Below, piece by piece: positions 43,541-64,000 of a DNA stretch of 64,000 bases; position 1 is the stretch's first letter; each line of letters starts with the position of its first letter. The notes under the pieces were generated by a model. It made no database searches. It worked only from the letters and a program-made list of their open reading frames with translations, and was not told the DNA's origin. Location of the stretch: positions 248,001 to 312,000 of the forward strand of contig NZ_RQZG01000001.1 in the NCBI RefSeq assembly GCF_003859805.1. The letters are read 5' to 3'. Made by a program: the position numbers and the translations under genes. This DNA is from Arachnia propionica (lineage in GTDB: Bacteria > Actinomycetota > Actinomycetes > Propionibacteriales > Propionibacteriaceae).

Positions 43541-44962
43541 TCAGCGCCTGCGTCGCGCGTTCAGCCGACCCAGCACGACGATGCCGAGGGCCAGCACGAA
43601 CATGCCGATGCCACCTGCGATGAGGGCCACCTGCCCGATGCCACCGGTCATCGGCAGGGCCGGCAGGTCCTGCTTGGTGTTCGGGACGGCCTTGTAGTTC
43701 TTGGTCCCGGCCTCGGTGGTCGGATCACCGGCGACGGTCAGCGCCCCACCGGCGATGGTGATCTCCTTCGGGGAGGCGTCCAGCACGTAACCATTGGGGG
43801 CCGTCGTCTCCACCAGGAAGTACTGACCGGGACGCAGCACCGGGACGGTCACGAAACCGTCCTGGTCGGTGGCGAGGTCCGCGACCGCGACATTGACGCA
43901 CTGGGCGTCCGGGCAGAGCTTGAAGACCGCACCGCCGAGAGCCTTCCTGGTGGCCTGGTCGAACTTGTGGATCCTGAGCTGCCCCCAGGTGGTCTGGGCG
44001 GTGACCTCGGCGGAGTCGTTGCCGTTGATGGTGACCTTGGCTGTGTTGGTGAACACCCCCTCCGCCGTGGCGGAGGTGACATCGGTGACATGGGTCACGA
44101 TGGTCGTGACGACCTTGCTCCCCGGGTTCTGGTTCAGCTTGGCCAGACCGACCGAGGTGAAGGTGCAGGTGACGGTCGTGGTGCAGGTGACATCCACCCC
44201 CTGCTCGAAGTTCACGCCGTTGTCCAGTGCCATGGCGGTGGAGACGTGGGTCAGCCCGGCAGGCAGGGTGTCGGTGATCACATAGCTGTCGATCTGGACG
44301 TTCTGGCCCTGCCGCGGAACATCGGACGTCACGGTCCAGGTGACGTTCTGGCCGATGTATCCGGCGGTGTTGAGATCATCCGTGACCGTCTTCTCGATGC
44401 CGGCCAACGAGTTCTTCGGGTAGACGTGGACGTCGTAGTTCCACTCGTTGTCCGTGGCGTAGGGCAGGGTCACCAGAAACGGGCGGCTGCCCAGCACGAC
44501 ACCGGTGTTCGGGGCACCGGTGTCGGACTCGACCACCAGGTAGAGGCCGATCTCGAGACCCTGGAACCGGGCCAGCCCCGTGCCGTTGGTCACCAGCGTG
44601 TTCTTCAGCTCGGTGGTGTGCCCATTGATGGTGCTCCCCGACTCCGGGGCCTGGATGCCGGGGACCTGGGCCCAGCCCTCCGCCGAACCGAGATTGACGC
44701 TGCTCACCTTGTACAGCTCAAAGGTGACTCCCTGGATCGGGGTGCAGCCGGTCTGCTGCTCGGCCCCGCTCGCGGGAGCGCCCTGCTGGGGTGGCTGCAC
44801 GCACTTGTGGATGTTCAGGGTCATGCCGCCGGGCGGCACCTGGATGTTGGCCGGGCCGGGTGGCTCATCGGCGTGGGATGGCGCTGCCCACCCGATCAGC
44901 GCCAGCGCGAATGCCGCGGTGAGCGCCAGCAGACGCCACCCCGGGTTCCTTCGCTCGGTCAT
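43541..44962 (-). CDS. SpaH/EbpB-type LPXTG major pilin
   Basis: 473 residues: signal peptide 'LLALTAAFALALIGWAAPSH' with cleavage after A, pilin motif 'YDVHVYPKNSLAG' (YPKN lysine for polymerisation), E-box-like 'YFLVETTAPNGYVLD', and the sorting signal LPMTG followed by a membrane helix ('QVALIAGGIGMFVLALGIVV') and basic tail. Two or three Cna-B-like domains with isopeptide bonds are expected. It forms the shaft of the pilus. The start overlaps the tip protein stop (ATGA); sortase follows after 8 bp. Confidence 0.93.
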   Translation of the reverse strand: MTERRNPGWRLLALTAAFALALIGWAAPSHADEPPGPANIQVPPGGMTLNIHKCVQPPQQGAPASGAEQQTGCTPIQGVTFELYKVSSVNLGSAEGWAQVPGIQAPESGSTINGHTTELKNTLVTNGTGLARFQGLEIGLYLVVESDTGAPNTGVVLGSRPFLVTLPYATDNEWNYDVHVYPKNSLAGIEKTVTDDLNTAGYIGQNVTWTVTSDVPRQGQNVQIDSYVITDTLPAGLTHVSTAMALDNGVNFEQGVDVTCTTTVTCTFTSVGLAKLNQNPGSKVVTTIVTHVTDVTSATAEGVFTNTAKVTINGNDSAEVTAQTTWGQLRIHKFDQATRKALGGAVFKLCPDAQCVNVAVADLATDQDGFVTVPVLRPGQYFLVETTAPNGYVLDASPKEITIAGGALTVAGDPTTEAGTKNYKAVPNTKQDLPALPMTGGIGQVALIAGGIGMFVLALGIVVLGRLNARRRR

Positions 44963-47850
44963 GATGTTCCCTCCATTGTGTGTGAGACCTGACGGTTCGC
45001 TCTGATCCGTCGGTACGTGATGAGTACGGCTGCGAGTGCGATGAAGGCACCGCCACCGAGGAGATAGAGCTCCGCTGCCGTCCCCCCGGTCAGCGGCAGC
45101 GTCGGCAGGACGGTCCGGGTGTTGCGGAACGGGGTCTCGACCCGGTGGGCCAAGGTATCGGCACCGATGTCGAGATCGACCTCGCGGGTGCCCAGCACGT
45201 AGCCCAACGGGGCACGGGACTCGACCAGCCGCCAGGCCCCCCAGCCGAGCTCGGTGACCCGGAACTGGCCCCCCTCGGGATCACGGTCCGGACCCGCACA
45301 CTCCTGGGCGCTGGCGGCGACACAGTCCGCGACGTCCAGCACGATCCCCTGGGGGCCACTCAACCTGAACTCGGCTCCCGCCAGGAGCTCATCCGTCCCG
45401 GCAGCGGTCTTCTGCCAGGTCACCTCGCCCGGCAGGCGTTGATTGCGGATCACCCCGAGATCGTGCGGCTGGACCGTGGCGGTGCCCTGGATGCGAAGGG
45501 GATGCACCGTCTCGTCCAGCCGGTACCCCGGGGGTGCTGTGCGCTCGGTCAGGGTGTAGCTGCCCCAGCCCAGGCCAGGCACGAGAAGTGCACCCGGCGC
45601 GGGATCGCTATCCCGTCCGCTGCAGTCCTGGGCTTCATCGGCCACGCAGTCCTCGATCTCGATCCGTTCTCCTCGGACCCCACCTTCCAGCACCCAGGCG
45701 GACCCGGGAGCGGCCACCGAGGTGAGGGCATCGACCTTGCGCCAGCGCAGCGCGGCGGGGGCATCCACATTGGTGAAGGTCACCACTCCGGAATCCTTGT
45801 CCCAGACCGCGTCCTTGAAGGAGTAGCCCGCACCCTGCCAGGGCTTGGCGGCCTCACTGAAGGTGAACTCACCGGCGGCCGGGACGACGAAGGTGTTGCC
45901 CTCGGTGACCACGCCCGCGCCTTCGACGGTGCGGGTGGTGTCCCCCGCCTCGCCGCCGAAGTCCCCCGTCGCGGTCAGCAACCAGGAACTGGGCGGATCC
46001 GGCTGGTCGTCGTGACTCGACTCGACCTTCTTCACCAGCGACAGCAGACGGTGATCGACGCGTGCGCACGGCACCTCGGGGGAGGCGTCCCAGCCCGAGT
46101 CGCTGCGTGGTGCACAGTCCACCCCCGGCAGTGGGGTCTCAGGGCCACCGTGCTGCCCCCAGGCGACATTTCCGATCTGCCGGTCCCCTCCGAGTCTCAC
46201 GCGCACCTGGTAGGTGATCCGAACTGTGCTCTGTGACCTGAGGGGCCCGTGCCAGGAGATCCGACCGGTCCTGCTGTCATAGCTCGCCGGGATGCGTGCT
46301 GGCCTCCCGTCGATGGTCGTGCGGAGTGAATCAGGGATGAACTCGGCGTCGTCGAGCAGACCGTTGAGGTCGTCGAAGACATGGGCCGGATAGCTGTCGA
46401 TGAAGGCGTCAGGAGCGATGTTGGTGGCCTCGACGTCGTAGGTCACCACGTCACCCACGAATTTTCGTCCCGCGAGAGCGTCGGAGGTCTTGTCCACCCT
46501 CAACTCCGCCAGCATCAGCGTGTAGGGATGGTCCTCGACCTCGCCCGACGGGGTGAATCCGGTCGGGGAGACCAACTCCGCAGCTGTCCGGGCTGCCCGT
46601 AGTCGCAGATAGGTTTCCCCCCGGCCTCCGGGTTGGTTGTTGTTCGGGTAGGCACTGACCACGTCCTCGGGGACCCGCCAGGTCAGTTCAGCACTGCCCG
46701 AGTCGCAGGCCACGGTGTCCGAGCTCTCAGCGTCGTCGAAGACCCCGTTGGAGTTCCAGTCGATCCAGCCACGCACATGACCGCTGCCCGAGCAGGTGAC
46801 CTTCTCCTGCGAGACGCGACCGGGGATGACCGGCCTCGGACTGGTCTGGGAGAACCCGTCGTCGCCGTCATCCGGCACCGTGTTGCTCGCCTGGTCCGGA
46901 GTGATCCTGTTCCCGAGGAGCACCGGCGGGTTCCCCATGTCCGCGAGCGGGAAGTCGAAGGTGTTGGTGGTGCCCACAGGAAGGGCCTGCCCCTCCCAGG
47001 TGGGTTGGTAGCGCGCGGCAGCATTGCCATAGCTGACCGGGGCATCACCGAAGTCGAAGTTCTGGACCACGCCGAGTGCCACGGCACTGGCTCCCTCCCC
47101 CTGCACCGAGATCACCGCGGTGGTGACCCCGTCGACGGGAGGGATCCTCATGAAGGCGACGGCAGTCGGACCTGAGGGGCAGGCCATCCCACTCGGCTCC
47201 AGGCGCAGCGCCTCGGTGGCGCGACTCGACAGTATCGCCATCGTGTGCTGGGTGCAGCGGGAATTGCGGTGTCGGTCGATGACATACCAGTCCGTCTCGC
47301 GACTTGCCTCGGCCTGGAGTGAACCGACCCGCCCCGTCCGGTTGCTGGATTCCGCATCGGCGAACACCAGTCCGTCCAGCGGAGCCTGCATTCCCTCGGG
47401 AGGAAGACCGGGCCCTTGAACCGTGGAACTGCATTCGAGCTTGAAACGGACCAGGGCACCGGGAGTCACATTGGCCACTCCAACGGTCATCTTGTTGGCC
47501 TTGCCCGGGCCACCGATGTGGTAGATGTCATCCAGACCATCCTGGAAATAACTGCCGGGGGTGTAGACCCTCATCCCGGTACGAGAACCACCGAAACCAC
47601 TGCCTGACGGCGGCTGTGAGATGACACAGGTGACCTGGATGTCGTATTCTCCGACCTTCCGCGTCTCGACCACGGTCTTTCCGGTTGCGGGAATGGTTTC
47701 TCCGGCAGCCCCCCACTCGATCCAGTTGATGGAGTTCAGGAATCGTCCGACACCACCGGTGGCGAAGCGGGCCTCAGAGGCTGGAAGCGGGCTCAGGACC
47801 AACAGCGCAACGGTCGCCAACAACACCCACACACGACGTGTCCGTTTCAC
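44959..47850 (-). CDS. Large LPXTG surface adhesin, probable pilus tip protein
   Basis: 963 residues from the GTG at 47850 (upstream codons would start before the signal 'RVWVLLATVALLVLSPLPAS'). Order: an N-terminal CshA-like region ('FDFGDAPVSYGNAAARYQPT'), a GEVED-type domain ('HVRGWIDWNSNGVFDDAESS', 'SGEVEDHPYTL'), a DUF11-like block ('VGDVVTYDVEATNIAPDAFI'), two SpaA/Cna-B-like repeats each containing 'DCVA' + 'LGWG' motifs, and LPLTG with a membrane anchor. This architecture fits a pilus tip or cell-surface adhesin attached by the sortase. First gene of the pilus operon. Confidence 0.88.
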   Translation of the reverse strand: MKRTRRVWVLLATVALLVLSPLPASEARFATGGVGRFLNSINWIEWGAAGETIPATGKTVVETRKVGEYDIQVTCVISQPPSGSGFGGSRTGMRVYTPGSYFQDGLDDIYHIGGPGKANKMTVGVANVTPGALVRFKLECSSTVQGPGLPPEGMQAPLDGLVFADAESSNRTGRVGSLQAEASRETDWYVIDRHRNSRCTQHTMAILSSRATEALRLEPSGMACPSGPTAVAFMRIPPVDGVTTAVISVQGEGASAVALGVVQNFDFGDAPVSYGNAAARYQPTWEGQALPVGTTNTFDFPLADMGNPPVLLGNRITPDQASNTVPDDGDDGFSQTSPRPVIPGRVSQEKVTCSGSGHVRGWIDWNSNGVFDDAESSDTVACDSGSAELTWRVPEDVVSAYPNNNQPGGRGETYLRLRAARTAAELVSPTGFTPSGEVEDHPYTLMLAELRVDKTSDALAGRKFVGDVVTYDVEATNIAPDAFIDSYPAHVFDDLNGLLDDAEFIPDSLRTTIDGRPARIPASYDSRTGRISWHGPLRSQSTVRITYQVRVRLGGDRQIGNVAWGQHGGPETPLPGVDCAPRSDSGWDASPEVPCARVDHRLLSLVKKVESSHDDQPDPPSSWLLTATGDFGGEAGDTTRTVEGAGVVTEGNTFVVPAAGEFTFSEAAKPWQGAGYSFKDAVWDKDSGVVTFTNVDAPAALRWRKVDALTSVAAPGSAWVLEGGVRGERIEIEDCVADEAQDCSGRDSDPAPGALLVPGLGWGSYTLTERTAPPGYRLDETVHPLRIQGTATVQPHDLGVIRNQRLPGEVTWQKTAAGTDELLAGAEFRLSGPQGIVLDVADCVAASAQECAGPDRDPEGGQFRVTELGWGAWRLVESRAPLGYVLGTREVDLDIGADTLAHRVETPFRNTRTVLPTLPLTGGTAAELYLLGGGAFIALAAVLITYRRIRANRQVSHTMEGTS

Positions 47851-47880
47851 TTCCCCCCCTTCCCCAAGGCGCAACTGATG

Positions 47881-47909
47881 ACGATAGGACCTCACAAAAT
47901 TGTTCGCAA
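47881..47909 (-). promoter_or_regulatory. Promoter of the pilus operon
   Basis: Minus strand TTGCGA (47909-47904), 17-bp spacer, TATCGT (47886-47881), about 31 nt before the adhesin GTG, which has a purine-rich ribosome-binding site (GGAAGGGGGG). Confidence 0.55.
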
Positions 47910-56277: not shown

Positions 56278-57072
56278 TCAGCCTTTCAGGCCGCTGACCT
56301 GAGTCAGCAGGCGTTGCGCACGGGGACGCAGTTCTCCTCGTCCACCACCGATGACCTCCCTGCTCACGGTGGGAAGCACCAGGTGGGTGGCCGGGCCGAA
56401 GATGGCCGCCAGCCCTTCGACGGTGCCTCCCTGGGCTCCGATGCCCGGGGCCAGGATCGACCCGTTGAAGCGGGTCAGGTCGCATCCCGGATCGGCATGG
56501 GTGGCCCCGATGACCAGACCGACGGCGTGCTCCCAGGCCGAGTTCCCGGCCACGATCTCGTCGACGACCAGCTGGGCGGCCCCGGCCTGCAACACCTGCC
56601 CCTCGGGGTTGGAGGTCCGAGCCAGCACGTAGAGCCCCCGCCCCTCGGCAACGGCTGCCTCGATGGCGGGGAGCAGGGCCCCGACCCCCAGGTAGGGGTT
56701 CACGGTGAGGGCATCTGCCGCCAGTGGCGAGTCACCCCTGAGATAGGCGGCGGCGTATCCGGCCATCGAGGAGCCGATGTCACCTCGTTTGGCGTCGAGG
56801 ATGCTGAGTGCCCCGGCGCCTCTGATGTCAGCGAGCACCTGCTCCAGCACCGCCACCCCGCGCGAACCGAAGGCCTCGAAGAAGGCCGACTGGGGCTTGA
56901 AGACCGCGACCTGCTCCCCCAGTGCCTCGACGATGCCCCGCGCACAGGCCTCGAGACCGGCCAGGTCCCGCCCCAGTCCCCAGGCGTCGAGGACCGATGG
57001 CATCGGGTCGATCCCGACGCAGAGCCTTCCCCGGGTCGTGGTGCATTCCTCCAGTGTGGTGAACCAGCTCAT
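56278..57072 (-). CDS. pyrF: Orotidine-5'-phosphate decarboxylase (type 2)
   Basis: 264 residues: '[20 protein letters not shown]', '[20 protein letters not shown]', the catalytic '[20 protein letters not shown]' (DAKRGDIG, type 2) and '[16 protein letters not shown]'-like end region. Last step of UMP synthesis. Start overlaps the pyrD stop by 4 nt. Confidence 0.95.
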
Positions 57073-58121
57073 CGTCGTCCTGTCAGTTCGTGGATGCCCC
57101 GCACCAGGGCGGGTCCGGCGTAGATGAATCCGGTGTACAGCTGGATCAGGCTGGCCCCGGCGTCGAACATGCGTGCCGCGTCCCGAGGGCTCATGATGCC
57201 CCCCACCCCGATGACCGGGAGCGCGGTGGTCCCGGCCACGGTCTCGACGAAACGAAGCGCCCGGGCTGTCAGGGGTGCCCCGGACAGCCCTCCTGCCTCG
57301 TCTCTCAGGTGCTGATCGCTCGGCCGGAGGCCATCGCGGGAGAGCGTGGTGTTCGTGGCGATCACCCCGGCCGCGCCGGCATCGCTGATCGCGGCGAGGA
57401 TCTCGGGCAGACCATCAGGGTCGAGGTCCGGGGCGAGCTTGACGAACACCGGCACCGGGTGACCGCCCTCACCTGCCGCGCCGATGACCGAGGTGATGAG
57501 TGTCGTGAGCTCCTGAGCCGTCTGGAGCGAACGAAGCCCCGGGGTGTTGGGACTCGAGACGTTGACCGAGAAGTAGTCGGCGAAGTCTCGCAGCACGTCC
57601 ACGGAACCGACGTAGTCGGTGCGGGCCCGGGCCATCGGCACCACCTTCGTCTTGCCGATGGAGATGCCGAGCGGGATCCCGAGCCGCAGGTTGCCCCGCT
57701 GGACGCCGAGTTTGAGCAGCCGGTCGGCCAGGGCGTCGGCCCCGGCATTGTTGAAGCCCATGCGGTTGACGATGGCACGGGAGGCCACCGCCCGGAACAC
57801 CCGTGGACGCTCGTTGCCCGGCTGGGCCTGCCCTGTCACCGTGCCCAGCTCTGCGAAACCGAACCCCAGTCGGGCCCAGGCCGGGGCCGCGATGCCGTCC
57901 TTGTCGAGACCGGCGGCGATCCCGACCCGGTTCGGGAAGCGGATCCCTGCCACCTCGACGGGGGCGACGACGCGGGCATGCCGGGTGCCGGGAACGTGAC
58001 CGAGCCATTCGATCATCATCTCGTGGACCGCCTCCGGGTTGCCCCGGTGGAGCCGGAACAGCACGGGACGCAGCAGGCGCTGGTAGCAGGCCAGCTCGCT
58101 CAGGGTCAGCAGACCGGTCAT
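57069..58121 (-). CDS. pyrD: Dihydroorotate dehydrogenase (quinone), class 2
   Basis: 350 residues from the ATG at 58121. The N-terminal helices ('[20 protein letters not shown]') anchor it to the membrane for quinone reduction. FMN barrel: '[20 protein letters not shown]', '[20 protein letters not shown]', '[20 protein letters not shown]' (catalytic Ser), '[13 protein letters not shown]', '[20 protein letters not shown]', '[13 protein letters not shown]'. Overlaps carB by 4 nt. Confidence 0.96.
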
Positions 58122-61100
58122 GACGGGCTCGCCCATTCCTGCAGGGAACGGACCCCGAGCTCCCCCCGGATCTGGTTCTCGATCCCCTGCACGGCGGCCG
58201 CCAGCCCCGGCACCGTCGTGATGCACGCCACGTCCGCCATGACGGCGGCGGTGCGGATGAGGTAACCGTCCCTGCGGATGTTGACCCCGTTGTTGGCCCC
58301 CTGCGGGGTGTTGAAGATCAGATCGATCCCACCCTGCTTGATGAGGTCGACGATGCTCGGCTCGTCGCTGTCGGGTTCTCGTTGCGACAACTTCGCGACC
58401 TCCGTGACATCCACCCCGTTACGGCGCAGCACCGATGCGGTCCCGGATGTGGCCAGGATGCGGAAGCCCAGATCGGCGAGGCGTTTGATGGGCCAGATCG
58501 CGTGTCGTTTGTCACGGTTCGCGATGGAGACGAACACCGTCCCTGACGTCGGCAGGGGCCACCCACCGGCCGCCTGGGACTTGGCGTAGGCCAGACCGAA
58601 GCCCTCCGCCAGCCCCATCACCTCACCGGTGGAGCGCATCTCCGGTCCGAGCAGGGTGTCGACGAAGGCTCCTGTGACGGTCCGGAACCGGTTGAACGGC
58701 ATCACGGCGTCCTTGACCGCCACCGGCGCCCCGGGATGCACGGTCGTGCCGTCCCCGACGGCACGCAGCATTCCCTCGGCCCTGAGATCCGCGATGCTGG
58801 ATCCCAGCATGATCCGGGCCGCTGCCTTCGCCAACGGTGTGTTGGTGGCCTTGGAGACGAAGGGCACGGTCCGGGAGGCACGGGGATTGGCCTCGAGCAC
58901 GTAGAGGATGTCGGCGTGCAGCGCGTACTGGATGTTGAGCAGGCCCCGGACCCCGACCCCTGCCGCGATGAGCTCGGTGGAGCGACGGATGCGTTCGATG
59001 ATCTCGTCGCCCAGGGTGATGGGGGGCAGCGAGCAGGCCGAGTCACCGGAGTGGATGCCCGCCTCCTCGATGTGCTCCATCACGCCACCCAGGTACAGCT
59101 CGTGACCGTCGTACAGGGCGTCCACGTCGATCTCGACCGCGTCGTCCAGGAACCGGTCCACCAGCACCGGGGACCCCTCGGAGACCTCGGTCGCCCCCGC
59201 GATGTAGCGGTCCAGCGAGTCGTCGTCGTAGACGATCTCCATGCCCCGACCACCGAGCACGAAACTCGGGCGCACCAGCACCGGGTAACCGATCTCCGCA
59301 GCGATCTGGCGGGCCTCCGTGGCGGAGCCGGCCATCCCGTGCTTCGGCGCGGGAAGCCCCGCCTTGGCCAGCACCCGGCCGAAGGCACCGCGCTCCTCGG
59401 CCAGGTTGATGGCCTCCGGGGAGGTGCCGACGATGGGGACACCCGCGTCCTTGAGGACCTGGGCCAGCTTCAGGGGGGTCTGGCCACCGAGCTGACAGAT
59501 GACACCTGCCACCGGGCCGGCCTGGGACTCCGCGTGGACGATCTCCAGGACGTCCTCGGCCGTCAGTGGTTCGAAGTAGAGCCGGTCGGAGGTGTCGTAG
59601 TCGGTGGAGACCGTCTCCGGGTTGCAGTTGACCATGATCGCCTCGTAGCCGGCCTCCCGCAGCGCCATCGTGGCATGGACGCAGGAGTAGTCGAACTCGA
59701 TGCCCTGTCCGATCCGGTTGGGGCCGGACCCCAGGATGATCACGGCCTCCTTCGTCCTGGTCGGGACCTCGCTCTCCTCGTCGTAGGTCGAGTACAGGTA
59801 CGGGGTCAGGGCCTCGAACTCGGCGGCACAGGTGTCGACCGCCTTGTAGACGGGGCGGATGTCGAGAGCCCACCGCAGCTGTCGCACGACGCTCTCGTCC
59901 AGACCACGCAGCGTCCCGATCTGGGAGTCGGACAGGCCGTGCCGTTTGGCCCGGCGCAGCAGCGCGGGGTCGAGTCGTTCCGCATCGGCCAGTTCCCGTC
60001 CCACCGAATGGATGAGAGCCACCTGGTCGAGGAACCACGGATCGATGCGGGTGGCCTCGAACAGCTGCTCGACGGTGGCTCCGGCGTCGAGGGCGTTCAT
60101 CAGCTTCAGCAGGCGACCGTCGTGAGGACGCCGCAGCTCCTCGAGGACATCGGACAGGTCACGCCCCGTGGCACCGTCCTGCCAGAAGTTGGTCCCGGTC
60201 TCCGTGGAGCGCAACGCCTTGCCCAGGGCCTCGGTGAAGTTTCTGCCGATGGACATCACCTCACCCACCGACTTCATGTGGGTGGTCAGGGTCGAGTCGG
60301 CGGCCGGGAACTTCTCGAAGGCGAACCGCGGCACCTTCACCACGACGTAGTCCAGGGCCGGCTCGAAGGAGGCCGGGGTGACCCGGGTGATGTCGTTCGG
60401 GATCTCGTCGAGGGTGTACCCGACGGCCACCTTCGCGGCGATCTTCGCGATGGGGAACCCGGTGGCCTTCGAGGCCAGTGCTGAGGAGCGGCTGACCCTG
60501 GGGTTCATCTCGATGACGATCATCCGTCCGTCGACAGGATTGACGGCGAACTGGATGTTGCAGCCGCCGGTGTCCACCCCGACGGCACGGATGATGGCGA
60601 TGCCGACATCACGCATCCGCTGGTACTCACGGTCGGTCAGCGTCATCGCCGGGGCCACCGTCACCGAGTCCCCCGTGTGGACCCCCATCGGATCGAAGTT
60701 CTCGATGGAGCAGATCACCACGACGTTGTCGGCCTTGTCGCGCATCACCTCCAGTTCGTACTCCTTCCATCCCAGGATTGACTCCTCGATGAGCACCTCG
60801 GTGACGGGACTGGCCGCCAGGCCCGTTCCTGCGATCTGTGCCAGCTCCTGTGGGGTGTGGGCGAAACCGGAACCCACTCCCCCCATCGTGAAGGAGGGGC
60901 GCACGACGACCGGGTAGCCGAGCTCATCGGCTGCGGCCATCACCTCGTCGAGGGTGTGGCACACCCGGGAGCGCGCCACCTCGGGGGCGCCACCCGGGAT
61001 GTCGGTCAAGGAGGCGACGATGTCCTTGAACTGCTCCCGGTCCTCGCCGCGCTGGATGGCCTCGAAGGAGGCTCCGATCAGCTCGCAGCCGTACCGCTCC

Positions 61101-61423
61101 AGCACCCCGTTCTCGTGGAGGGCGACGGCGGTGTTGAGGGCCGTCTGCCCCCCCAGGGTGGCGAGCAGGGCGTCAGGACGCTCCTTGGCGATGACCCGCT
61201 CCACGAAGTCCGGTGTGATGGGTTCCACGTAGGTGGCGTCCGCGAAGTCCGGGTCCGTCATGATGGTCGCCGGGTTGGAGTTGACCAGCACGACTCGGAA
61301 CCCCTCGGCCTTGAGCACGCGGCAGGCCTGGGTGCCGGAGTAGTCGAACTCGCAGGCCTGCCCGATGACGATCGGGCCGGAGCCGATGACGAGGATGGAC
61401 GAGATGTCGGTTCTACGAGGCAT
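58118..61423 (-). CDS. carB: Carbamoyl-phosphate synthase large subunit
   Basis: 1101 residues from the ATG at 61423 ('[20 protein letters not shown]'); the open frame upstream belongs to another gene's shadow. Two ATP-grasp halves: '[20 protein letters not shown]' in the first, '[20 protein letters not shown]' in the second, and a C-terminal MGS-like allosteric domain ('[20 protein letters not shown]'). Makes carbamoyl phosphate with CarA for pyrimidines and arginine. Its ATG lies inside the last codons of the TOPRIM-like gene (11-nt overlap), so it depends on translation through the inserted cassette. Confidence 0.97.
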
Positions 61424-62063
61424 GGCACTCCTGAATCTGGGTGGTGAGGAACCGGACTCCATCACGGAACCGTTGGAAACTCGGTGAGGAATTGTTCTCG
61501 ACATCGATGTGAGGAGCGATGTCGGTGGTGAGCTCGATCTTCTTAAGCCCGCCCTTGTGCTTGGGAACACTACTGAGCAGGTTCTCGAGCCGACGGGCGG
61601 GGTCCCGGATCGCATCGGGCTCACGCAGTCCCCGCTTCTGGGACATGTTCTTGAACGCACTCCCGTAGGCCTGCTCCAGGGCGTGTGGGTCGCCGAAGTA
61701 CCAGGCCTCGAGCATCTCCACGGCGATTCGGGGGAGCACCTGGCCATCCTGCTTCGCCGTGTGACTGGCGACGTTGAGCTCGGCCTTGCGCACAGCAGCC
61801 ACCAGGTTCTCACGGAATTCTGCACAGTCGTCGGTATCGGAATCCACGACCAGGACCACGCGGTGGGTGGGGTTGGTCGGCAGCCAGTTCGCATGGCCCC
61901 GGAGCCGTTTCGGCACCTTCTTCAAGAACTCGCTCTTGCCACCGAGGTTGAACACATCGAAACTGGTGTCAGCGGGAAGCAGCCTCGGCAGGATCTGTTC
62001 GAGGAAGAGTTGCATCGTGTACCCCTCCACCAGGAAATCGAGATGGGCCTTCCTGCTGTCCAT
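61413..62063 (-). CDS. TOPRIM-like DUF4276-type protein, partner of AAA ATPase
   Basis: 216 residues. N-terminal '[20 protein letters not shown]' has the VEG glutamate (E13) and '[12 protein letters not shown]' the DxD (D74, D76) of a TOPRIM fold; '[20 protein letters not shown]' (E116, E119, D125) is the E.E.W..D block typical of DUF4276. Together with the upstream AAA ATPase this looks like the nuclease half of an OLD/PARIS/AbiL-like two-gene phage-defence module. It starts 3 nt after the ATPase stop and overlaps carB by 11 nt. The exact defence type is not assigned. Confidence 0.72.
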
Positions 62064-62066
62064 CCG

Positions 62067-63236
62067 TCACACCAATCCCGGATCAGCCAAGCGGAGGTAA
62101 CCCTCCGCCCACAGCTCGGACAGCGACGCCCCGGTCTCCAGCATCTTCATGACCCGCTCGTCGTCCGAGACCCGGTGGACGTGGGCATAGCCCTGGTCGT
62201 CGCGGGAGATGGTACGAACCTCCTGGGGCCTCACCGCTGACAGGAAATCACGGGAGTGGGTGGTGACCAGCACCTGGGAATGCGCGGACAGTTGCCGGAA
62301 ATCCTCCACCAATGCCGGGATCAGTCGAGGGTGCAGTTGGTTCTCCGGCTCCTCGACACCGATCACCGTCGGAGGATTCGGGTCATGGAGCATGGTGAGG
62401 TAGGCGAGCAGCTTCAGTGTGCCATCGCTGGTGAACCGGTCCAGCACCGGATCGTCGAAGGGACGATCCTTGAGTCGCAACAGCAGCCTGCCATCCTCGA
62501 GCAGCTTGGGGCGGATGCTCTCCAACTGAGGCACGCGCGTACCAAGGGCCGTGAAAACCTGCTCCAGGGCATCAGGGTGTTGCTCCTGCAGGTACTGCAC
62601 CACATTGGCCAGGTTGTCCCCGGTCTGACTGAGCCGGGGCTCGGGGCGACCGGTCGGAGTGGTGCGGGTGTTGTCCGCGCTCAGGTAGGACAGGTACCAG
62701 CCCTGGATGAAGTGGCGCAATGCCTGCACCCGTTGATGGCGCTGCATCTGGCCGAGAGCAGAGACCGCCAACAAATCGGGGGAATCCATCGTCTCGTCCT
62801 CATAGGCCTGGGTCTGCTCGTTGTACACCTTGCCCTGGCCATGCTTGAACACGAGGATGCCTCGGGGACGGCCCTGGGCCGGGGCGGTGGTCCAGCGCAG
62901 TTCCTCACGCTCCACCACCGGCAGACCGTGCTCCTCCCCCACTGCCAGTTGGTATGTGGTCCGGCGTGGTCTGCCGTTGATCTCCACCGTGTACGTCAGC
63001 TCGAACTCGACGGGACCTTCGCTGCCTCGGCTGCGAATGGCGGCCATCCGGTTGCGGCGATCCCAGGCTGATCGAAGCCCGAGGGTGAAGGCCTCGTGCA
63101 GGAAGGCGAAGGCGTCGAAGACGGTGGACTTGCCACTCCCGTTCGCCCCGACCAGCACGGTCAGCGGGGTCAGGTTGTCGAGGCGGACATCACGCAGCAC
63201 CCGGTAGTTCCTGATGCGGAAACTCACGATCTTCAC
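62067..63236 (-). CDS. AAA (AAA_15/21-type) SMC-like ATPase
   Basis: 389 residues from a GTG inside the carA stop (GTGA). '[20 protein letters not shown]' and Walker A '[20 protein letters not shown]' (residues 28-47), the middle region without motifs, Walker B '[20 protein letters not shown]' and the His switch '[20 protein letters not shown]'. This is the ABC/RecF-like ATPase half found in OLD-type, PARIS (AriA) and AbiL systems; it lacks its own TOPRIM domain, which the next gene supplies. Housekeeping functions of similar stand-alone ATPases cannot be excluded. Confidence 0.85.
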
Positions 63237-64000
63237 GTCCGTGCCTCCATCAGGGTGGCGAAGCGGTCGAACAGGTGGTTGGCGTCGTGGGGCCCGGCGG
63301 CGGCCTCCGGGTGGTACTGCACCGAGAAGGCGACCAGGCGACCATCGCGTTCCAGCTCCAGTCCCTCGACCACCTGGTCGTTGAGACCGAGGTGGGAGAC
63401 CCGGGCCGTCCCGAACTCGGTCCGGGTTCCCTGCTCCAGCGGCGCATCGACGGCGAAGCCGTGGTTCTGGGCGGTGATCTCCACCCTACCGGTGCTGCGG
63501 TCCAGCACCGGCTGGTTGATGCCACGGTGACCGAATTTCAGCTTGAAGGTGCCAAAGCCCAGGGCCCGCCCGAAGAGCTGGTTGCCGAAGCAGATCCCGA
63601 AGTAGGGCATCCCGGCCTCCAGGACCTGGCGCAGCACCTCGACCTGATGGTCCGCCGTCGCCGGGTCCCCCGGGCCGTTGCTGAAGAACACGCCATCGGG
63701 GGAGACGGCCCGGATGTCCTCGAAGGTCGCGGTCGCGGGCAGCACATGGACCTCCATCCCCCGCTCGGCCATCTGCTTCGGGGTCATGGTCTTGATGCCC
63801 AGATCCAGGGCGGCGACGGTGAACCGTTTCTCCCCCACCGCGGGAACCACGTAGGACTGCTCGGTGGAGACCCTCGCGCACAGGTCCGCCCCGCTCATGG
63901 CGGGCTGCTGCAGCACCCGGGCCAGCAGCCGCTGCGGGTCCTGCTCGATCGTCGAGATGCCGACCCGCATGGCACCGAGGCTACGGATGTGCCGGGTCAG
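63233..64000 (-). CDS. carA: Carbamoyl-phosphate synthase small subunit, N-terminus cut by window edge
   Basis: The visible 255 C-terminal residues end in '[18 protein letters not shown]'. They contain the class I glutaminase domain: '[20 protein letters not shown]', '[20 protein letters not shown]', catalytic Cys in '[20 protein letters not shown]', '[10 protein letters not shown]', '[11 protein letters not shown]' and the His/Glu of '[13 protein letters not shown]'. It supplies ammonia to CarB. The stop codon overlaps the start of the AAA ATPase by 4 nt. The frame is still open at the window edge. Confidence 0.96.

Follow-up and report, generated by a model that had tools for sequence, protein, structure and literature searches.

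A HEC-01-type ATPase/DUF4276 gene pair inside the carA-carB operon of Arachnia propionica

A two-gene unit of the HEC-01 kind separates carA from carB

What are two genes resembling known defence modules doing between carA and carB, which encode the small and large subunits of carbamoyl-phosphate synthase (CPS)? This arrangement, in which a gene for an ABC-type ATPase is followed by a gene for a DUF4276 protein, is found in a 64,000-nt stretch of the Arachnia propionica genome (the window, within which positions are numbered here; all genes of the locus are on the minus strand). Our analysis firmly identifies the pair, by its family and its place, as a member of the HEC-01 kind (Hma-embedded candidate, a PADLOC-DB candidate) in a new setting, and we consider it probable that it is a two-gene antiviral cassette that was acquired between carA and carB and is expressed together with the housekeeping operon.

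The ATPase matched the PADLOC HEC-01A model PDLC04182 with an E-value of 4.2e-143 over residues 2-384, and the DUF4276 protein matched the HEC-01B model PDLC04202 with an E-value of 1.6e-60 over residues 7-207 of 216, the assignment being made from these model matches and from adjacency rather than from PADLOC system rules and cut-offs. As in HEC-01, two adjacent genes are found with the ATPase first, both proteins match over almost their full length, and relatives are found on plasmids as well as within a restriction operon. Unlike in HEC-01, the pair described here is embedded in an essential biosynthetic operon, and its second gene overlaps the carB start and seems to be the source of the carB ribosome-binding site. 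The A and B letters appear to be swapped for one PADLOC subfamily, since the ATPase-sized model PDLC04144 (3.6e-108) is named HEC-01B while the short PDLC04143 is named HEC-01A. In a literature search with preprints outside its coverage, we found no published account of HEC-01 activity or mechanism, no paper on DUF4276 and nothing pertinent on MADS (MAD3, MAD4); judged by its title, a paper on Desulfovibrio prophages (PMC12724379) may bear on HEC-01.

The four genes are tightly joined. The 3' part of carA that the window covers (63233..64000) matches TIGR01368 (4.7e-76), and the gene continues for 351 nt past the window end, giving a full open reading frame (ORF) of 372 aa (locus L053). Its TGA overlaps by 4 nt the GTG start (63236) of the ATPase gene (62067..63236; 389 aa), for which a GGAGG motif within the last carA codons (63244..63248) is the likely ribosome-binding site, if it is indeed read as a Shine-Dalgarno sequence. 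Three nucleotides then separate the ATPase stop (62067) from the ATG (62063) of the DUF4276 gene (61413..62063; 216 aa), and the carB ATG (61423) lies inside this gene, 11 nt of which, up to its stop at 61413, overlap carB. The carB gene itself (58118..61423; 1101 aa) matches TIGR01369 and NF003671, with the CPSaseII_lrg match spanning nearly its whole length. These overlaps and this gap are exactly those described in an earlier annotation of the same DNA (the original prediction), and the same four-gene string was found in 5 other genomes.

Both genes of the pair are under purifying selection, with dN/dS values of 0.06-0.13 for the ATPase and 0.14-0.35 for the DUF4276 protein among the genome pairs with computable dS. 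Between the window's genome and a Propionibacteriaceae metagenome-assembled genome (G038), the putative nuclease gene has evolved about three times faster than the ATPase gene (dN of 0.090 vs 0.029; dN/dS of 0.34 and 0.10), and the difference is small between G019 and G033, two other genomes with the pair (0.036 vs 0.025). Synonymous divergence between subclades (window's genome vs G019) was higher for the ATPase gene (2.42) than for carB (0.68), which would fit allele replacement, but we draw nothing firm from this excess because sites are near saturation and GC content differs. The GC content of the pair is 0.630, compared with 0.675 across the window, and among 311 same-size segments just one was as poor (step of 200 nt, some segments overlapping the pair itself); in each of the six genomes with the pair, its GC content is also below that of carA and carB, as in G033 (0.543 and 0.478 vs 0.645 and 0.627). 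Considering its recurrence in 5 other genomes, the purifying selection on both genes and the rare low GC content, the string is not a product of chance.

The second protein has a Toprim-like fold and a DUF4276 identity

The ATPase matches Pfam AAA_21 (3.1e-30) and AAA_15 (1.2e-19), and carries what we take to be a Walker A motif (about residues 30-38), a Walker B motif (EEPE, 295-298) and a THS motif (326-328), all invariant in 7 homologs; its structure model was rejected at a pLDDT of 45.8. For the second protein, DUF4276 (1.8e-25) was the sole Pfam match up to an E-value of 0.01, and conserved residues include the Glu13 of a VEG motif, D74-x-D76 and E116-x-x-E119-A-W (aligned columns). Its structure model resembles the Toprim domains of OLD proteins best (VIA-align), with a Glu after strand 1 and a DxD after strand 3 as in OLD-type Toprim domains, suggesting that the protein is a putative nuclease with a Toprim-like fold; a PDB sequence search with the DUF4276 profile gave a best E-value of only 0.29. 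A second protein lacking a TOPRIM fold, a finding that would have spoken against the original prediction, is therefore not what the model suggests.

Comparison with named systems sets the pair apart from PARIS, class 1 OLD nucleases, Gabija and MADS. PARIS (AriA/AriB) was rejected since the partner is DUF4276, rather than DUF4435 as the original prediction labelled AriB, and since all 16 PADLOC matches of the second protein are HEC-01 models; no Ari model matched it in a library that included a fused AriAB model, the presence of a separate AriB model being unchecked. Class 1 OLD nucleases, Gabija GajA and retron OLD proteins likewise combine an ABC ATPase with an OLD-type Toprim domain. However, class 1 OLD proteins carry both in one polypeptide and here there are two ORFs with a stop between them; the genes adjoining the pair are carA and carB, so that neither a GajB UvrD-like helicase, as in Gabija, nor a reverse transcriptase, as in retrons, stands beside it. 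The ATPase resembles MAD3 of MADS, but its score (114.9 bits) is far below the equivalog cut-off of 420 and the second protein hit none of the MADS models. The ATPase also resembles AbiLi (3.2e-29); for the second protein, E-values of up to 0.01 gave no AbiL hit, the presence of an AbiLii model in the library being unchecked.

The original prediction had proposed an AAA_15/21-type ATPase with a DUF4276 Toprim-like partner, related to PARIS yet distinct from it, inside carAB, and Pfam, PADLOC and VIA-align bear this out. Overall, its protein pair and placement stand, the nearest named relative, HEC-01, was not named there, its idea that the cassette could not be lost fails, and its idea that the level would follow pyrimidine demand finds no support, as described below.

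The pair is patchy in the genus but always placed between carA and carB

In a genus sample of 39 genomes, including the window's own (G000), a DUF4276 gene was found in six, and in all six it lies in a carA-ATPase-DUF4276-carB string with both genes of the pair intact. Carriers include, besides G038, A. propionica OH2822_COT-296 (G025), [Pseudopropionibacterium] massiliense (G019) and Tessaracoccus bendigoensis DSM 12906 (G010). This patchiness is not the housekeeping conservation among relatives that would have told against the original prediction. Literature searches on carA-carB inserts, on defence genes embedded in housekeeping operons and on Arachnia or Tessaracoccus defence turned up no report of the arrangement among the papers listed (preprints outside coverage).

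The carB junction could be read in 37 of the 39 genomes (for G016 and G031 no carB start was available). In 27 of these, carA and carB meet at an AAGGA-NNN-CTG(A)ATG joint, where the carA stop and carB start overlap, or abut in G017 and G022; the letters of this old joint are also present in G012, a poor assembly in which the scripted call was 3 nt off. A CAGGAG motif 4 nt before the carB ATG was found at eight junctions, namely those of all six genomes with the pair and those of pair-free G023 and G027 only. Neither joint type was seen in the incomplete genome G024 (L042), where carA and carB overlap by 17 nt and no AAGGA or CAGGAG precedes the start. Separately, a second carA-carB operon occurs in three genomes of the genus (G035:C3, L049; G036:C44, L050; G018:C8, L051); it has the overlapping joint of the old type and is about 78% identical to carB of the window.

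In the window, the CAGGAG motif (61428..61433) encodes a Gln-Glu pair of the DUF4276 protein and may double as the carB ribosome-binding site. The protein ends in Gln-Glu-x-His-Ala plus 1-3 residues in 6/6 carriers, the Gln-Glu codons being CAG GAG in each and the His-Ala codons overlapping the carB start. This tail is absent from 11 aligned homologs located away from carB (the G178 copy being an open piece of a broken gene). Its restriction to carB-adjoining copies makes it look like an adaptation to the site, as if these residues existed because carB must start there.

Gain, loss and transfer at the carA-carB joint

If the cassette could not be lost without harming UMP synthesis, as had been proposed, one would not expect a close relative to lack it and keep carA, carB and CAGGAG; G023 does precisely this, which refutes the claim. 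In a tree of Der, encoded some 30 kb away (30 of the 39 genomes), pair-free G023 is sister to carrier G033 with carrier G019 outside (support of 99/93 and 99/98), and a joint Der and carB tree (34 genomes; G042 carB partial; G016, G026 and G041 without carB) agrees (99/92 and 100/100). A carB-only tree (31 genomes) puts G023 in the same three-genome clade (100/100), beside G019 at 89/60. Odd base composition was flagged for G033, G027 and G039, and for G043 in the joint tree.

In G023, the 16 nt directly preceding carB are identical to the DUF4276 gene end of G019 (16/16). When the G023 tail was compared with nuclease 3' ends, the number of shuffles as good, out of 500, was 0 for G019 and for G033, 9 for the window's genome, 10 for G010, 92 for G038 and 406 for G025. 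No trace of the ATPase gene was found in the G023 and G027 joints (212 and 286 of 300 shuffles as good). Since G023 is nested among carriers and retains a DUF4276-like tail, the pair appears to have been lost at least once, with the carB start signal kept. G027 lies just outside the G023 clade in the joint tree (96/90) and its tail is 16/16 identical to that of G033, the shuffles as good being 0 for G033, 1 for G019, 6 for G025, 92 for G010, 295 for G038 and 393 for the window's genome; G027 may either have lost the pair or show the state before insertion. In the Arachnia half of the tree, G039 and G042 keep the old joint.

Among the 25 genomes of the other half of the joint tree, T. bendigoensis (G010) is the sole carrier, and the old joint was found in all 23 of its 24 companions that could be read (G016 excluded). 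Where removal was observed it left a scar, which makes many losses restoring the old joint unlikely, so that horizontal arrival at the same site in T. bendigoensis is the simplest reading. Its carA and carB look Tessaracoccus-like beside the pair, except at the end of the carA alignment, whose final 120 nt are as close to G019 (0.85) as to the sister genome G009 (0.83).

The cassette is more likely supplied by a housekeeping operon than by pyrimidine control

Upstream of carA, outside the window, lie genes that we take to be aroC-aroK-aroB-efp-nusB, with 18 nt between nusB and carA. Downstream of carB, the next gene of the operon, presumably pyrD for dihydroorotate dehydrogenase, is an ORF at 57069..58226 whose likely start at 58121 would overlap the carB stop by 4 nt. 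A search of five car loci against Rfam returned nothing at E-values up to 1, and a scan for sigma-70-like promoters was negative over the stretch that it covered. Considering the aro-efp-nusB genes upstream, the short gap between nusB and carA and the lack of Rfam matches, the cassette is more likely to be supplied by a housekeeping operon than to be under pyrimidine control, and the proposal that its level follows pyrimidine demand finds no support. The broader idea of a defence-like cassette riding an essential operon is well supported.

Outside the genus, the pair is rare and found in mobile settings

Matches were found in 8 of 198 genomes of a family sample (six from the genus, and one, G003, weak), in 7 of 391 of an order sample (all from the genus except G178) and, with PF14103, in 10 of 396 of a phylum sample (including the window's own; 7 above the cut-off), compared with 0 of 14 control genomes. 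At all 11 non-genus loci, for which 3.7-15 kb each were read, the DUF4276 gene is directly preceded by an ATPase gene of the same family, and at none of them is carB beside the pair. Outside the genus, the pair is thus rare, and a two-gene unit at every locus read. Most of 10 neighbours searched at seven loci were ordinary, one being HsdR-like (L119), one an IS66 transposase (L118) and two without family; in G178, two proteins about 3 kb on from the pair match the PADLOC candidates PDC-M68A and PDC-M68B. The HEC-01-type pairs at L116 and L121 have a third-position GC content of 0.35-0.40 vs about 0.6-0.9 for their neighbours, signs of recent arrival. A second HEC-01-type pair also exists in the window's genome (G000:C13:93722-95484; L114:8723-10484), with its DUF4276 gene split into two frames and an ATPase (best model PDLC04175) 26% identical to the carAB copy.

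Relatives were present in 10 plasmid records, one of which, from Aeromonas, is chromosome-sized (4.9 Mb), and the ATPase gene is upstream at 5/5 plasmid loci read (these include a single Synechocystis copy out of four and neither the Persicobacter nor the Aeromonas record). On a Meiothermus plasmid (L126), a tight operon reads hsdS - DUF4433 - macro domain - ATPase - DUF4276 - hsdR, and the best PADLOC models of its pair are those of the carAB pair. This type I restriction operon apparently has two further modules packed into it, and its DUF4433 and macro proteins are reminiscent of DarT/DarG. A Rahnella pair has a phage antitermination gene on one side and, a few genes away on the other, lysis genes, and the pairs of Pseudomonas and Pseudanabaena are on plasmids typed as conjugative. 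Such plasmid, restriction and prophage-like settings are those of mobile defence systems. None of 88 pattern matches in viral contigs was a relative, and no relative was found in phage records.

An antiviral cassette is favoured over three other explanations

An antiphage function of the pair is strongly suggested, and the two proteins may share the division of labour of OLD and PARIS on two separate chains: the ABC ATPase would most likely sense, or be triggered by, an invader, and the Toprim nuclease, held back by the ATPase until then, would be freed to cut nucleic acid. We propose that an ancestor of several Arachnia took up the cassette exactly between carA and carB. At each of the three joints the spacing would permit translational coupling: the ATPase gene starts in the carA stop, the nuclease gene follows the ATPase stop by 3-4 nt, and the CAG GAG codons at its end would provide the carB ribosome-binding site in place of the original AAGGA/TGATG coupling. 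The cassette would be co-transcribed within aro-efp-nusB-carA-...-carB-pyrD. It would also have moved horizontally to T. bendigoensis, at the same site, and been deleted at least once, with the carB start signal left behind.

Could the pair instead be selfish, resembling a toxin-antitoxin or anti-plasmid module in which the ATPase restrains a toxic nuclease and which persists by addiction or by excluding mobile DNA, with no antiphage benefit? We find this unlikely, even if it is the best of the alternatives: a regulator-like gene does precede an effector gene by 3-4 nt, Pfam describes AAA_21 as a putative AbiEii toxin of type IV toxin-antitoxin systems, and relatives occur on plasmids, two of them typed as conjugative, and in none of the viral contigs or phage records searched. 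However, strong addiction would not predict the loss in G023, and relatives are found within a restriction operon and next to an HsdR-like gene. The two readings also overlap, as PDB entry 8v45 names the PARIS AriA an antitoxin.

That the pair is a housekeeping accessory of CPS or of pyrimidine control is very improbable: its constant place in the six carriers, stitched to both genes, would fit, but it is missing from 31 of the 37 genus junctions read and lost in the close relative G023, and its relatives adjoin carB at none of the 11 loci read outside the genus and, on plasmids, keep company with restriction, conjugation or prophage-like genes. Equally hard to credit is a decaying passenger, inserted by chance and kept since its removal risks carB, its low GC content, the removal seen in G023 and the broken DUF4276 gene of the second pair being set against intact genes in all six carriers, invariant motifs and dN/dS values well under 1.

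Returning to the antiviral cassette, we tentatively suggest, as a possibility that we ourselves find somewhat doubtful, that the carAB joint is a docking place for immunity, where cassettes would enter, spread between species and leave by recombination within the core genes on either side, without an integrase, since the codons at the cassette end double as the carB start signal. If that was the case, immunity genes would be dosed by core metabolism rather than by a defence island. Defence systems are usually sought in islands, prophages and plasmids, and here a candidate system is built tightly into a core biosynthetic operon, its last codons seeming to start the next enzyme; should the pair prove active, such systems would escape searches based on islands. 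The joint also offers a natural series of close relatives with, without and having lost a defence cassette, in which its cost, expression and benefit could be compared.

Elsewhere in the window (43541-47895), two large ORFs end in sorting signals of the LPMTG and LPLTG types with a membrane stretch after them, and look pilin-like by eye.
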